From Candidatus Omnitrophota bacterium (GTDB lineage Bacteria > Omnitrophota > Gorgyraeia > Gygaellales > Profunditerraquicolaceae): a DNA stretch of 50,631 nt. A model generated the notes under the pieces. It was not told where the DNA came from and searched no databases. It saw only the letters and a list, made by a program, of their open reading frames with translations. Below, piece by piece: positions 25,554 to 50,631 of this stretch (position 1 is the first letter of the stretch; the number at the start of each line of letters is the position of its first letter). The stretch is from positions 1 through 50,631 of the forward strand of contig WOZK01000013.1 of assembly GCA_011620275.1 (NCBI GenBank). The letters are read 5' to 3'. Both the position numbers and the translations under genes were made by a program.

Positions 25554-25613
25554 GGTATACAAAGTGATAAATTAGATGTTTTTACCGCTTTGCGGCGCCG
25601 GAGAAAACCGAGA

Positions 25614-25699
25614 AATAAACCCCGGGCGCATGTCCAAAGCAGTTCGACAGGCTCACTGCCAAGGCATTGTCGAAAGATCAGCCCGGGGAGCTTCATTAA
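25614..25699 (+). repeat. Structured intergenic repeat family B copy 2
   Basis: CCCCGGGC...GCCCGGGG outer stem, TTCGACA...TGTCGAA inner stem; matches copies at 38272, 45832, 48190 and 5190. Confidence 0.85.
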
Positions 25700-38187: not shown

Positions 38188-38271
38188 TACGTGTGGGACT
38201 TTTTCAGCAGACTGCTAAGGGGGGTTACCCCGCAGAGTGTCGGATTTACCTTGGCTAAACGGGTTAATTAA

Positions 38272-38355
38272 GAAAGAAACTCCGGGCGCATGTCCTGAGC
38301 AGTTCGACAGGCTCACTACTGAAGCCCGTCGAAGGATTAGCCCGGGGGCTCCACT
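38272..38355 (+). repeat. Structured intergenic repeat family B copy 3, abutting the mtaB start codon
   Basis: GAAACTCCGGGCGCATGTCCTGAGCAGTTCGACAGGCTCAC...GTCGAAGGATTAGCCCGGGGGCTCCACT. Confidence 0.85.
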
Positions 38356-44569: not shown

Positions 44570-44629
44570 TCAAACCGTTCCCTCCGGTTATATTTCACCG
44601 GGTTTTAACCTCGTGAATAAAAGACAAGG

Positions 44630-44656
44630 GGGCCGGAGAGGAGCATTCTCCGGCCC
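44630..44656 (+). terminator. Hairpin downstream of rpoD (weak U-tract)
   Basis: GGGCCGGAGA-GGAGCAT-TCTCCGGCCC perfect 10-bp stem. Confidence 0.5.
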
Positions 44657-44702
44657 TTACGGTATTTTACACTCGGTATAGCCTTTATCCTTCTGTCTCA
44701 TA

Positions 44703-45737
44703 ATGAAAAAATTCCGTGTATTGTCCCGTGATCTCAGGTTTTGGCTTTCCCGTAAAGCCGGTATTCCTTTTGTTGTACCGGACACCATACAGGTCTCTCT
44801 TACAAACGCCTGCAATCTTAAATGCAAAATGTGCAGTGTCTGGTCCAATCCCGACCGGGAGAGCGAGATGACGGCCGCCGAGGTGTTGAATATCACGGAC
44901 CAGGCGGCCGAATGGGGCATCTCGGAGATGAACCTTTGCGGCGGAGAGCCGCTTTTAAGCGATAAATGCTTCGATGTCATAAGGCACGCCGTAAAAAAAA
45001 GACTAAAAGTTATCCTAACAACCAACGGTACGCTTATAAATGCCGATTCTGCCGCGGAACTGGCCGGTTCCGGCGTGGATATAGTCTGTATATCGCTTGA
45101 CGGGGCTACGGCTGCGACGCATGATTCCATACGCGGAGTCCCGGGCGCATACGATAAGATCATTGAAGGGATTAAGTCGATTCATGCCGCCAAAAGAGCC
45201 GGGCGGCCGGTAACCGTTCTTATTTTGACACTGCATAACGAGAATCTTGACGAGGCCGTTGAGTACGTGCGCATGGCGAAAAGGCTGGGGGTGGACGCGG
45301 TCTATCTGACTTCGCTGGTGGCGGACAATATACGTCTTTATTCCCGCAGAGAGAACCATCCCCTTTGGATAACCGGAAACCGCCTTGATCGCCTGGACGA
45401 GGTGATGGACACGCTGGGAAAAATGCAGGATGAATACTACAGGTTCGATTACCCGAGTTTCTCCCTTATAAAAAAATATTTCAGGGGAACTCTCGCTGAA
45501 AACGACTGGACGTGTTTCGCCGGCTTCAGGCGGTTCGTGGTCTGTCCGGACGGGAACATTCAGATGTGCGGAGAGATCATCGGCAATTTCAAGCGGTGCC
45601 CGGACATAAGAAAGATATGGTATTCGCGCCCTGCCTGCAGGAAGCGGTCCATGATAAAGAATTGCCGTGATTTCTGCCTGCAAGACTGCCACGCCAGGAG
45701 AGACTCTTCCTGCCTGCGGCGGGTCTTTACGGGATAG
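44703..45737 (+). CDS. Radical SAM/SPASM-like protein (rSAM-1)
   Basis: CNLKCKMC, LCGGEPLL, C-terminal Cys set (CFAGF..CPDGNIQMC..CRDFCLQDC). Confidence 0.9.
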   Translation: MKKFRVLSRDLRFWLSRKAGIPFVVPDTIQVSLTNACNLKCKMCSVWSNPDRESEMTAAEVLNITDQAAEWGISEMNLCGGEPLLSDKCFDVIRHAVKKRLKVILTTNGTLINADSAAELAGSGVDIVCISLDGATAATHDSIRGVPGAYDKIIEGIKSIHAAKRAGRPVTVLILTLHNENLDEAVEYVRMAKRLGVDAVYLTSLVADNIRLYSRRENHPLWITGNRLDRLDEVMDTLGKMQDEYYRFDYPSFSLIKKYFRGTLAENDWTCFAGFRRFVVCPDGNIQMCGEIIGNFKRCPDIRKIWYSRPACRKRSMIKNCRDFCLQDCHARRDSSCLRRVFTG

Positions 45738-45831
45738 CCGCGGGCTACCCGGGAGGACAAATAGAGAACCTTCCTTTTCATATAAATAGACAAATCCCGC
45801 CTACAGGTATAAAATAATCCTATAGGGTGAA

Positions 45832-45920
45832 TCGAGAAAGAGACCCCGGGCGCGTGTCCTGAGCAGTTCGACAGGCTCAATGTCAGGGTATTGTCGAAGG
45901 ATCAGCCTGGAGAGCTTCAT
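45832..45920 (+). repeat. Structured intergenic repeat family B copy 4
   Basis: GAGACCCCGGGCGCGTGTCCTGAGCAGTTCGACAGGCTCAATGTCAGGGTATTGTCGAAGGATCAGCCTGGAGAGCTTCAT. Confidence 0.85.
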
Positions 45921-45969
45921 TGGTATGGGTACGTCCCTTTGAAACCTTTATAACTTTCTATCTGCATAA

Positions 45970-48165
45970 ATGCCTTCCGAATCCCTCCGGGAAAATGAGC
46001 TTTTCGAAGAAGTAAAACACAATTACTTGTTCTATCTCTCCCGCGCTACCGGCATTCCCTTGGTCACTCCGGATACAATACAGATTATGCTTACTTCCCG
46101 CTGCAATCTTCGCTGTAATATATGCGGAGTCTGGAAATCCGGATATAAACGGGAAGACGAGATCAGTACCGCGGACGCCAAAAGTCTGATAGACCAGGCC
46201 GTCGAAATGGGGGTGACGACGGTTTATTTCACCGGCGGAGAGGCGTTGCTGCGAGACGATATCTTCGAGCTGATAGAATACGCCGCCAGGGACGGTATCA
46301 TCACTACATTTAACACCAACGGTACACTCATAACCGAAGCCGTGGCCGAGCGCATAGCCAATTCCGGCCTGAGAAGCCTGACTTTCTCCATAGACAGCCC
46401 CCGGGAAAAAGTGCACGATTCTCTTAGAGGCGAAGGGGTTTTCAATAAGGCGATGTCGGCGATAAAGGCGGTCAACCGTTACAAAAGAAATACAGGGAGG
46501 CCGGATCTGGTTTTGTGCGGGGTAGTGATGCGGCAGAACGCGGCCGATCTTTACGATCTCGTGAAGTTAGCTGATGCCAACGATTTTTGTTACGTGGCCT
46601 TGCAGCCTGTGGTGGATAACAGCGGCCTCTGGCTGCAGGAGAATAAACGCTGCGGCGAGTTTTGGATAGGGGAGGAAGACCTGCCGGACTTGCGCAGGTC
46701 ACTGGCCAGGATAGAGGAATTCAAACGCGCCAAGAGCATGCCGGGGGTCGACGTAATGGGAGAGAAGGTCGTCAGCTATTTCAAAGGAGAACGGCGCGCC
46801 AACTCCTGTTATGCCGGTTTTAGCCGTATTTTCGTGAACCCTCTGGGAGATATAAGTTTTGTTTGTTTTGAAAGCTTCGGCAACATCAAGAAAGACAGGC
46901 TGAAAGAGGCGTGGTATGGCCCGTCGGCAGCGGCTATCAGGGAGAAGATAAAGAAATGCGTTCTTAATTGCACCCAATTTTGTTCCGAACGCCCCGGCAC
47001 CGATAACCTTAAAGTCATCCATGATAATTTCGCGGCCGAGCTCTCCCGCAGGTTCGATAAGCGCTCTTCACTCAGCCTGCTGAAGAGGGAATACGACCTG
47101 CTGTCCGGGCTCGAAGAAGACTGCGGCCGGAATATCCTGCTCCGGGAAGAAACAGCGGTCTTGCGAAACAGGATACGCGGCGCGATGGAAAAAGAGTATA
47201 GCGAAATATCTTCTCCGTCCGCCGCCAAGAATCCTAAGACGGCGCCCTCCGCAGCCAACAAGTTTTCCCAGTTCTATCTTGCAATAACCAACAGGTGTAA
47301 CCTCAACTGTATAATGTGCAGCACTACCAGGCATCCGCATGAGGTGGAGGAAGAGCTTTCGCCGGGAGACTGGCTGGAGGTATTGAAGAACATCACACGC
47401 TTCGAGACCGAGGTGGTGACTTTCGGCGGAGGAGAACCGTTACTCCGGCAGGACGATCTGTCCGAAATGATAAGATTCTGCGTTACAGCCGGGGTCACCG
47501 TCAACGTCGTTACCAATGGGACCCTAATGAATTCTGCTTTCCTGTCCGGGATGGAAGAAGCAAGAGACAAACTTATATTTCTTGTTTCCTGCGACGGTTT
47601 GAGGCGGGAAAACGACTTGATCAGGGGGGAAGGGACTTTTCATAAGGTGATCGCGGCAGCCGATCTGCTCCGCAGTAAGGGGTTCACTTTTTATTTTACT
47701 TCCGTGATCATGCCGGAGAATTTCGCTCATTACGTCGATTTCCTAAAGTTCCTCAGGCGTTATTATCCCGGCGTGCGGCTGGACATACAGCCGGTTATAC
47801 CTCACAATGAGATATACCACCGCCGCAGGGATTTCGGGCTCAGGGAAGAACAGAAAAAAGACCTGAAGAACATAGTCGATTTCCTGCGCAGGGAGAATCC
47901 GGTGCCTTTATGCCGTCCGCTCGAGATAATAGAGAAGTACGTTGATTATTTTAACGGCACCTTGAAAGCGGAGAACCGCTGTAAGATGGGATCCGGCAGT
48001 TTCAACGTAAACCTGCGCGGTAACATATGGATATGCGGCAAAGAGCTGGAATACCCGCTGCATAAATATAAACTTGAAGATGTTCTTGCCAGCGGCGAAT
48101 ACCGTCAGGAGATGAACAGGGTAGAGAACTGTCATTCTCCGTGCCTGGCAGGGCTTGTAATTTAA
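45970..48165 (+). CDS. Tandem double radical SAM protein (rSAM-2, two CxxxCxxC domains)
   Basis: First domain CNLRCNIC + FTGGEALL; second domain CNLNCIMC + FGGGEPLL; each followed by C-terminal Cys clusters. Confidence 0.9.
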   Translation: MPSESLRENELFEEVKHNYLFYLSRATGIPLVTPDTIQIMLTSRCNLRCNICGVWKSGYKREDEISTADAKSLIDQAVEMGVTTVYFTGGEALLRDDIFELIEYAARDGIITTFNTNGTLITEAVAERIANSGLRSLTFSIDSPREKVHDSLRGEGVFNKAMSAIKAVNRYKRNTGRPDLVLCGVVMRQNAADLYDLVKLADANDFCYVALQPVVDNSGLWLQENKRCGEFWIGEEDLPDLRRSLARIEEFKRAKSMPGVDVMGEKVVSYFKGERRANSCYAGFSRIFVNPLGDISFVCFESFGNIKKDRLKEAWYGPSAAAIREKIKKCVLNCTQFCSERPGTDNLKVIHDNFAAELSRRFDKRSSLSLLKREYDLLSGLEEDCGRNILLREETAVLRNRIRGAMEKEYSEISSPSAAKNPKTAPSAANKFSQFYLAITNRCNLNCIMCSTTRHPHEVEEELSPGDWLEVLKNITRFETEVVTFGGGEPLLRQDDLSEMIRFCVTAGVTVNVVTNGTLMNSAFLSGMEEARDKLIFLVSCDGLRRENDLIRGEGTFHKVIAAADLLRSKGFTFYFTSVIMPENFAHYVDFLKFLRRYYPGVRLDIQPVIPHNEIYHRRRDFGLREEQKKDLKNIVDFLRRENPVPLCRPLEIIEKYVDYFNGTLKAENRCKMGSGSFNVNLRGNIWICGKELEYPLHKYKLEDVLASGEYRQEMNRVENCHSPCLAGLVI

Positions 48166-48189
48166 TTCCGGGGACACAATACTTAATTA

Positions 48190-48238
48190 AGAAATCCCGG
48201 GCGCCTGTATTGAGCAGTACGTCCGGCTTCGACGGGAA
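48190..48238 (+). repeat. Truncated family B repeat (copy 5)
   Basis: AAGAAATCCCGGGCGCCTGTATTGAGCAGTACGTCCGGCTTCGACGGGAATA resembles the 5' half of family B. Confidence 0.55.
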
Positions 48239-48260
48239 TATTTTTACTTAAGGGACGCAT

Positions 48261-49447
48261 ATGATAAATTTGTTCCCCCGCAGAAAAATGCGGTTCAAGT
48301 TTTCCCCGGATGCCGTGACGGAGGCGATGGCCGCAGGGCTGTATAGCCTCAAGCGCGGCGCCCGGACCGTCCCCATACGGTTGTTTGTTTATCCGACCGC
48401 GCTTTGCAATGATAAGTGCGCATATTGTTCGGACGGTCTGAACGCCGGGGATAATGTCGAAAAGAAGCATCTGCGTTATGATCCGCAAAAAGATTTTTTT
48501 CCCGCAGGGATTACGTGAAGAAATTGGCGGACGACGTCAAAAAACTGGCGGTGCGAGATATGCATCTTTTTGGCGGTGGGGAGCCGTTTTTCTATAAAGA
48601 GAATATGTTCTATTTACTGGAGGAACTCAGAAATACCGACGTCTTCATAAGGGTGATAACAAACGCTAATGCGCTCAACGAAGGAGATGTGGAGCGTATA
48701 GTCCGCGACCGTCTGGTGAGCCAGCTGAATATAAGTTTCAATACCGATTGCGAGGAGACCGCTTCCGCTATCTATGCCAGCCGCGGGCGCCACTGCCACA
48801 CCATGGATATCCTGGCTGCGTTGACACGGTACAAAGGTATTTACGCTACAGATTATCCTTTCGTGGACATCATGTTTACCCTTTTGAAGAACAATTTCGA
48901 CAGGATACCGGCTGTCGTCGGGAACTTGCGCGGGCATAAGATAAATTTCCTCTTTTTCCAGCAGCTGAGATGTTATACGGAGCGGCAGTCTGCGCTTGTC
49001 GCTCCGCCGATACCGCGGGAGGATTTGCTGACGGCCGGGCGCATGCTCGAGGAGATGGGTATTACTTCAAATATCTCCGAGCTGGCGGCGGGTGAGCGGC
49101 TTCCCGCGGGCAATACCCGGGAACAAAACGGCCATGTGGTTTCTCTGCGCAACAAGCGGGGGATAGCGCTTGCCTGCTATATGCCGTTGACCACATTGTC
49201 TATATGTTATAACGGAGCCGTGCCGGTGTGCCAATTCAGGTACGAGAAACAATTCTCGTTCAATTATCTGGATGCCGGCAGCCTGGCGTCGTTTCTGAGA
49301 GGCAAAGAGCACGCCTCTTTTCTAAGGGGATTCCTGGGCAAAGAAAGCCCTCCCGATATCTGCAAAGGATGTCTTTTTTGTGTTAACCACGAGTTGGAAA
49401 CGTTGAAAAAACGATTCAGGCATTTTGATTCGTTAAAGAAACGGTAA
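48261..49447 (+). CDS. Radical SAM protein (rSAM-3) split into two frames at T7 (48494-48500): 48261-48518 and 48515-49447
   Basis: Frame 1 carries ALCNDKCAYCSDG; -1 frame continues ...DFFSRRDYVKKLADDVKKLAVRDMHLFGGGEPFFY, supplying the rest of the domain; C-terminal ICKGCLFCVNHE. Confidence 0.8.
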
Positions 49448-49461
49448 GGGCGCGGCACAAG

Positions 49462-50496
49462 ATGGATAATTTGACCATAGAAAGAGTAAAGGCGGGTTTG
49501 GCCGATCCCGGCATCGGCCCGGAGACCATCGCTTTGATGCTGACCGATGCCTGTAATCTTTCCTGCGTTTACTGCCGCGGCGGAAGGATTGACGACAGCA
49601 GGGGAGGGGGAGAAGAAAGCGAGTTAACTACGGAGGAGCTGTTTCGTCTCTTCGAAGATGCCGCCGGATTTAAAGTCAAAGAAGTAAACATAGGAGGCAT
49701 GCGGGGCGAGCCTTTTTGCAAGAAAGACATTCGTTTGATCCTGCGCAAAATAAAAAGCCTGGGGTTGACGGGTTCGATGACTACCAACGGGAGCATGCTC
49801 AGCGGCGCGCTGGCCGAGGAAATGAGTTCTTACGGATGGGATATCCTGTTGTTGAGCCTTGACGCCCCTTTTGCCCGGCTCCAGCATCAATTAAGACCGG
49901 CGGCGAACGGTAAGGAATATTTTCACAATATATTGGAGTTTCTCGGCGCGTTGAATAATAACCCGAGCAGCAGGATGAGGGTCCTGGTTAATATGGTGAT
50001 AACCGGGAATAATTACAGATATTTCCCGGGAATGGTGGATTTTGTGAACAATTTCAAGAATATAGAGTCGCTTAACGTGTTAAGACTTGTCGACATGGGG
50101 CTGCCGGGGTATTCCGATTTGCAGCTTGACTGCGGCCAGGCGGCCGAATTTCGTGAGACACTTGAAGCTTTTAAACGGGAAAAGAAAGTCTTATATGCCG
50201 GGAATTGGTCTTTTCCCGATGTCCGGAGGGAAACGCCGGCCGGGCGGCATACAAGATGTTTTACGAATTATTATATCCTTTCAATTGCGGCGAACGGAGA
50301 CGTGCTTTTCTGTCCGCAGCAATATAAGCCCTTGTCGGGGATTAATATACGCGATGTCCGCTTGCGCGACCTATGGCTTAACGAACACCTTTCTTTCCGG
50401 AAGATATTGTCCGAGTCTGCGCCTTGTTACGGGGAATGTTGTACTATATTGAAAAAACAGAACGAAGAGATATATAACGCTGTCTGCGACGACTGA
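49462..50496 (+). CDS. Radical SAM/SPASM-like protein (rSAM-4)
   Basis: MLTDACNLSCVYCRGG, NIGGMRGEPF, C-terminal CFTNYYILSIAANGDVLFCPQQYKPL...CYGECC. Confidence 0.87.
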   Translation: MDNLTIERVKAGLADPGIGPETIALMLTDACNLSCVYCRGGRIDDSRGGGEESELTTEELFRLFEDAAGFKVKEVNIGGMRGEPFCKKDIRLILRKIKSLGLTGSMTTNGSMLSGALAEEMSSYGWDILLLSLDAPFARLQHQLRPAANGKEYFHNILEFLGALNNNPSSRMRVLVNMVITGNNYRYFPGMVDFVNNFKNIESLNVLRLVDMGLPGYSDLQLDCGQAAEFRETLEAFKREKKVLYAGNWSFPDVRRETPAGRHTRCFTNYYILSIAANGDVLFCPQQYKPLSGINIRDVRLRDLWLNEHLSFRKILSESAPCYGECCTILKKQNEEIYNAVCDD

Positions 50497-50562: not shown

Positions 50563-50631
50563 TAAAAATTCATTTGACCCGAATTTTGCAGTAGCAAAAT
50601 TCGCCTTGAGCGGAGCGAAAGGTCGCAAGGA

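Follow-up and report, generated by a model that had tools for sequence, protein, structure and literature searches.

A radical SAM gene array in an Omnitrophota genome and its probable relation to a Wzm/Wzt glycan-export system

Most known radical SAM chemistry on sugars comes from antibiotics and lipids, with one or two enzymes in each case. AprD4, a B12-type radical SAM enzyme, acts on an aminoglycoside sugar. HpnJ, also B12-type, is encoded by one of three genes for the BHT cyclitol ether (PMC5462960). BlsE is a radical SAM cytosylglucuronate decarboxylase that acts on the glucuronic-acid moiety and is 35% identical to NirJ (PMC3715490). Runs of several SPASM enzymes are found in SynChlorMet (ScmE/ScmF) and other tandem radical SAM peptide systems. 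In the library searched, mostly as titles and abstracts, we found no literature linking radical SAM arrays to Wzm/Wzt exporters or to Omnitrophota, an absence that is no proof.

The locus described here shares features with each of these systems. With Wzm/Wzt loci of the O-antigen or teichoic type it has in common Wzm, the Wzt N-terminal domain, a WecA-type transferase and GT2 and GT4 genes, all on contig C18 of the same genome. It differs from them by its many radical SAM enzymes, a GT2-radical SAM fusion and a 650-residue C-terminal domain of Wzt. HpnJ and AprD4 resemble the terminal B12-type enzyme on C18, which lies outside the window, but differ from it in neighbourhood, and its scores are under both curated cut-offs. 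With SynChlorMet the array shares more than one SPASM enzyme in a row and matches to both the ScmE and ScmF models, whereas rSAM-1 reaches at most 98 bits against a cut-off of 400 and PqqD was not found in this genome.

Layout and family membership of the array

The window, a stretch of 50,631 nucleotides, is the whole of contig C15 of a 1.48-Mb draft MAG in 36 contigs. The first-pass annotation had reported four consecutive radical SAM genes that run in one direction and have five radical SAM domains between them, and ORF calls and Pfam bear this out; all four are on the + strand. There are 43 radical SAM matches in the genome, including a second run on C18. The features are as follows.

44628..44658, + strand: terminator-like stem-loop between rpoD and the array (13 pairs, 8 of them G-C; a consensus match only)
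44703..45737, + strand: rSAM-1 (W1), 344 aa, with core motifs CNLKCKMC and GGEP
45833..45921, unstranded: dispersed repeat in the gap between rSAM-1 and rSAM-2, with copies at 25609-25697 and 38271-38315
45970..48165, + strand: rSAM-2, 731 aa, with two radical SAM domains
48261..48518, + strand: first part of rSAM-3, 85 aa, holding CNDKCAYC
48494..48500, + strand: T7 tract, site of the -1 shift that joins the rSAM-3 parts (GAT TTT TTT / TCC)
48515..49447, + strand: second part of rSAM-3, 310 aa, with GGGEP and a SPASM-like C-terminus
49462..50496, + strand: rSAM-4 (W4), 344 aa, with CNLSCVYC and C-terminal C266, C284 and C322-x3-CC
50577..50631, unstranded: 55-bp repeat that closes the contig and recurs where contig C14 begins; over the final 24 bp it overlaps the opposite end of C14, oriented for a join

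The two domains of rSAM-2 are W2N (about residues 1-385, with SPASM) and W2C (about 430-731). Pfam Radical_SAM (PF04055) is matched by rSAM-1 (1.1e-28), rSAM-2 (1.2e-51 over two stretches) and rSAM-4 (8.8e-18). The CxxxCxxC core together with PF04055 membership was found in rSAM-1, in both halves of rSAM-2 and in rSAM-4. In rSAM-3 it appears only when the two parts are joined, the second part scoring 27.7 bits, just under the cut-off. This corrects the first-pass annotation: rSAM-3 is no single ORF and has its motifs on separate ones. The SPASM family (PF13186) is matched over the cut-off by rSAM-2 and rSAM-3 (22.9 bits for the second part of the latter) and narrowly missed by rSAM-4 (21.0 against 21.5); rSAM-1 gives no match despite its C-terminal cysteines (C271, C289 and C321-x3-C325-x-Q-x-C329). 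Three of the four array genes, all intact, keep the core and the C-terminal cysteine motifs. The GC content of the array is close to that of the adjoining housekeeping genes, and an Rfam scan of the window returned tRNA only. We scanned the ORFs of the gaps at 45738-45969 and 48166-48260 and those after 50496, and agree with the first reading that none is a credible precursor peptide.

These appear to be SPASM/twitch-type radical SAM genes, and by HMM scores they lie outside every curated NCBIfam equivalog (AhbD, NirJ, MoaA, PqqE, MftC, BlsE and ScmE/F among them). The best scores against their cut-offs are 115 bits against 500 for rSAM-1, 178.7 against 265 for rSAM-2 (two domains summed), 46.9 against 380 for rSAM-3 and 74.8 against 325 for rSAM-4. 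AhbD and NirJ models are among the best matches of rSAM-1, far under their cut-offs. The predicted model of rSAM-1 (pLDDT 83) has BlsE (7vob) as its top fold match over the full length (TM 0.70/0.73), and BlsE is also the top PDB sequence match of rSAM-1 and rSAM-2; the lack of an RRE domain on rSAM-1 is a further likeness. The two proteins differ in several respects: identity is 19%, rSAM-1 scores 70 bits with the BlsE model against a cut-off of 400, and the C-terminal motif of BlsE (C317xC319xxC322) is unlike that of rSAM-1. The likeness to BlsE is not specific for sugars, because BlsE itself is close to NirJ, rSAM-1 matches AhbD and NirJ, and its fold matches 2-10 belong to peptide maturases (SkfB, CteB and SuiB). 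The model of rSAM-4 (pLDDT 61.7) is too weak for fold comparison.

Exporter loci on C18 and in other Omnitrophota

On C18 the run follows directly on the genes for a Wzm/Wzt ABC exporter of glycans and for a GT2-radical SAM fusion. Read in order, the genes of this region encode an FAD oxidoreductase, Wzm, Wzt (900 aa), a GH44-matching protein, the GT2-rSAM-SPASM fusion, a B12-rSAM, four radical SAM enzymes (rSAM-C to rSAM-F), GT2, a TM protein and a second B12-rSAM; a WecA/MraY-type protein (PF00953) and a GT4 are encoded upstream. The array genes overlap or almost abut. Wzm carries an ABC2_membrane match. Among solved ABC exporters the N-terminal domain of Wzt is closest to 8dku (1.1e-58), followed by the TagH and RfbE O-antigen exporters (1e-46 to 1e-39). 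The last B12-rSAM matches HpnJ (3.7e-69) and AprD4 (6.8e-33), both under the curated cut-off. In this Wzt (L022:2268-4970, G000:C18), Pfam and NCBIfam matches are to the ABC-ATPase only, and the 650-residue C-terminal domain lies beyond them.

A similar locus is found in other Omnitrophota. There, Wzm and Wzt (about 905 aa) are usually followed by GT2-rSAM, B12-rSAM, SPASM/twitch-type radical SAM genes in a row, GT2, TM protein and B12-rSAM. A single contig of genome G208 (C16) carries Wzm, Wzt, two GDSL proteins and a B12-rSAM, then W2N, W2C, W4, W1, rSAM-C and rSAM-D. G367:C133 reads Wzt, GT2-rSAM, B12-rSAM, W2N, W1, rSAM-C to rSAM-F and GT2, and here W2N is fused to a methyltransferase-like domain. 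G239:C5 has Wzm, Wzt, GT2-rSAM, a W2N double protein, W4, W2C and more radical SAM genes. The orthologs of W1, W2N, W2C and W4 are thus co-located with Wzm/Wzt in relatives of other families, a neighbourhood conserved for every array gene except rSAM-3. The array had been described as having no recognised partner; such a partner exists in the exporter and the GT2-rSAM fusion, which stand on C18 in this genome and are contiguous with the array orthologs in relatives.

Identities to the orthologs at Wzm/Wzt loci are 44% for W1 (both G208:C16 and G367:C133), 48-51% for W2N in other Omnitrophota (48% in G208), 57% for W2C in G208, where W2N and W2C are separate adjacent genes, and for W4 50-53% in G208 and 29-33% in G239. 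In a maximum-likelihood tree each forms its own supported clade (W1 100/99, W2N 100/99, W2C 100/100, W4 98/95). True orthologs of W2C and W4 are rare, being confined in the genomes sampled to this one, G208 and G239. A scan with the W2C alignment outside Omnitrophota gave only distant sequences, with no Wzm/Wzt-GT2-rSAM locus recognised, its close relatives being in two Omnitrophota. rSAM-1 and rSAM-2N do have the sequence block that was said to be common to them (about 34% identity), but the local duplication read from it is ruled out by the tree: both are nearer to an ortholog elsewhere than to each other and fall in separate supported clades, which argues for old paralogy.

Of 384 Omnitrophota genomes, 20 have the GT2-rSAM protein; 18 of these 20, and none of the rest, also have the Wzt C-terminal domain (hypergeometric P 5.5e-29, overstated as it treats related genomes as independent). 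Wzm or Wzt is present at every GT2-rSAM locus read whose contig reaches far enough upstream. At the Wzm/Wzt loci of G124 and G025, other large proteins unite GT-like sequence with radical SAM motifs, a hint, the second of its kind, of GT-rSAM pairing.

Other radical SAM arrays were seen in the phylum. Those of a CMLRCKMC type (L024 in G005:C32, L025/L026 in G013:C7, L053 in G121:C23) consist of about 8-10 successive genes, accompanied by B12-rSAM, TPR and GDSL-like genes, and are kept even between Omnitrophota classes at 52-88% identity; we noticed no Wzm/Wzt over the stretch that was read. About a dozen radical SAM proteins lie in one 17-kb stretch of Omnitrophota DeMMO3_15 (L061, JAGVOB010000097.1). 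Around six radical SAM genes of the B12 type lie in L107 (G000:C9:1-19900), with integral-membrane proteins and a repeated protein family starting M(K/R)L(S/I)VP(T/A)NW in between; a similar protein is found in G239 (L105:4025-5254).

Present position of the array and the split rSAM-3

In the G208 and G367 systems W2N and W1 are placed between the B12-rSAM and rSAM-C. C18 has the G367 order without the W2/W1 block, so that its B12-rSAM runs straight into rSAM-C, and the same-genus G001:C85 likewise has no W2/W1 there. Since exactly the array block is missing from an otherwise kept order, and given the orthology and the tree, we read the window array as a displaced part of the system. Judged from gene order and sequence, it is probably a sub-module that has moved away from a glycan-export system conserved in Omnitrophota. 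In this genome the exporter is on C18 and the module on C15; as the module is not at the exporter, its continued membership rests on orthology.

In several relatives, a C4-type gene, rnhA, yebC, ruvC and ruvA come after rpoD, either directly or past a variable insert. The end of C14 that overlaps C15, read in reverse, carries tRNA-Met, tRNA-Val, C4-type, rnhA, yebC, ruvC and ruvA. The 24-mer of the overlap belongs to a dispersed repeat also present at the other end of C14, and for this reason we infer the join, with synteny as its backing. By this join the array would now sit between rpoD and tRNA-Met/tRNA-Val/rnhA/yebC. A correct join would leave the module flanked by housekeeping genes, with no hidden partner behind it. 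The suggestion that a substrate is encoded beyond the window thus seems to find no match just past its end, where the likely next contig brings tRNAs, rnhA, yebC and ruvCA. An array running on past the contig end is likewise disfavoured, as the C14 overlap brings the gene order that follows rpoD in relatives. The G001 assembly is too fragmentary at rpoD to date the move. The intergenic dispersed repeats of the window are 86-93% alike, and the repeat at the C15/C14 ends is a separate one.

rSAM-3 is made of two ORFs that share a GTGA overlap and retain their motifs, and a -1 shift in the T7 tract joins them into 395 aa. Sixteen of the 17 other window homopolymers of at least 7 lie within an intact ORF of at least 150 aa, which gives no sign of a general problem with the assembly. 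RNA structure downstream of the T7 tract gives no support for programmed frameshifting (z-score -0.26). The split may be a single error, a recent mutation or inactivation, slippage, or two coupled peptides or a two-subunit enzyme. No ortholog of rSAM-3 was found in 285 Omnitrophota genomes, none was seen beside Wzm/Wzt in relatives, and no related solved structure was found.

Candidate substrates and a proposed glycan-tailoring route

We tentatively propose, as somewhat short of an even call, that the sugars of a single exported surface glycan are remodelled by about a dozen dedicated radical SAM domains (in this genome ten SPASM/twitch-type and two B12-type), of which one is fused to a glycosyltransferase, and that the 650-residue Wzt domain recognises this glycan. 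In this scheme the WecA/MraY-type transferase would begin a polyprenyl-phosphate-linked glycan, which the GTs would lengthen. The radical SAM enzymes would then act successively on its sugar residues, for example by oxidation, epimerisation, deoxygenation or decarboxylation, and the B12-rSAMs may add C-methylation or further steps that depend on B12. The dedicated C-terminal domain of Wzt would recognise the modified glycan, and Wzm/Wzt would export the product. Several hints suggest that the enzymes tailor sugars of a polyprenyl-linked glycan: the GT2 fused to a SPASM radical SAM domain, the radical SAM-methyltransferase fusions, the BlsE fold of rSAM-1, the likeness of the last B12-rSAM to HpnJ and AprD4, and the search of the genome for PqqD/RRE, which gave none.

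That the enzymes instead modify a ribosomal peptide encoded elsewhere, in RiPP fashion, with the ABC transporter exporting it, seems unlikely. SPASM enzymes often mature peptides (PMC8326336), and the next fold matches of rSAM-1 are SkfB, CteB and SuiB. On G208:C16, 3' of the array (L049:18521 to L050:2845), there are PqqD, a PRMT-like methyltransferase, two radical SAM genes and an HprK-related/ScmC-like protein; this stretch may be a separate peptide cassette. No such PqqD cassette was noticed in the other array loci read, their small genes being scanned in part, and PqqD/RRE (PF05402 only) was found neither in this genome nor on rSAM-1 to rSAM-4. The gaps hold no precursor-like ORF, housekeeping genes would follow the array by the proposed join, the C18 genes overlap or almost abut, and the exporter is of Wzm/Wzt type.

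We hold it to be just as improbable that the enzymes act on a lipid, on a cofactor or on the polyprenyl carrier and not on sugar residues. Family scores of rSAM-1 slightly favour AhbD/NirJ, which act on tetrapyrroles, the Tes lipid synthase is among the weak matches of the GT2-rSAM protein, and B12-rSAM families include lipid enzymes. However, every score is far under the equivalog cut-off, the locus holds a GT2 fusion, GTs and the Wzm/Wzt exporter, and no tetrapyrrole or lipid biosynthesis genes were recognised among the array-locus proteins scanned. A non-functional leftover on its way to being lost, as hinted by the frame-shifted rSAM-3, the detachment from the exporter and the lack of a W2 ortholog in the 83% complete assembly of same-genus G001, is very improbable, since three of the four genes are intact with their core and C-terminal cysteine motifs, GC is like that of the adjoining housekeeping genes and the T7 indel may be an error.

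Glycan tailoring is thus the preferred reading. The idea of an undescribed maturation or modification pathway fits the conserved multi-enzyme set, for which we found no description in the library searched; its peptide-precursor side is disfavoured. The system has two markers, the GT2-rSAM fusion and the unusual Wzt C-terminal domain, which flag it in about 5% of sampled Omnitrophota genomes. Omnitrophota are a phylum without an isolate (PMC10066038). If the proposal is true, an exporter locus with a whole radical SAM run would equip them with surface glycans of unusual, oxygen-sensitive chemistry.
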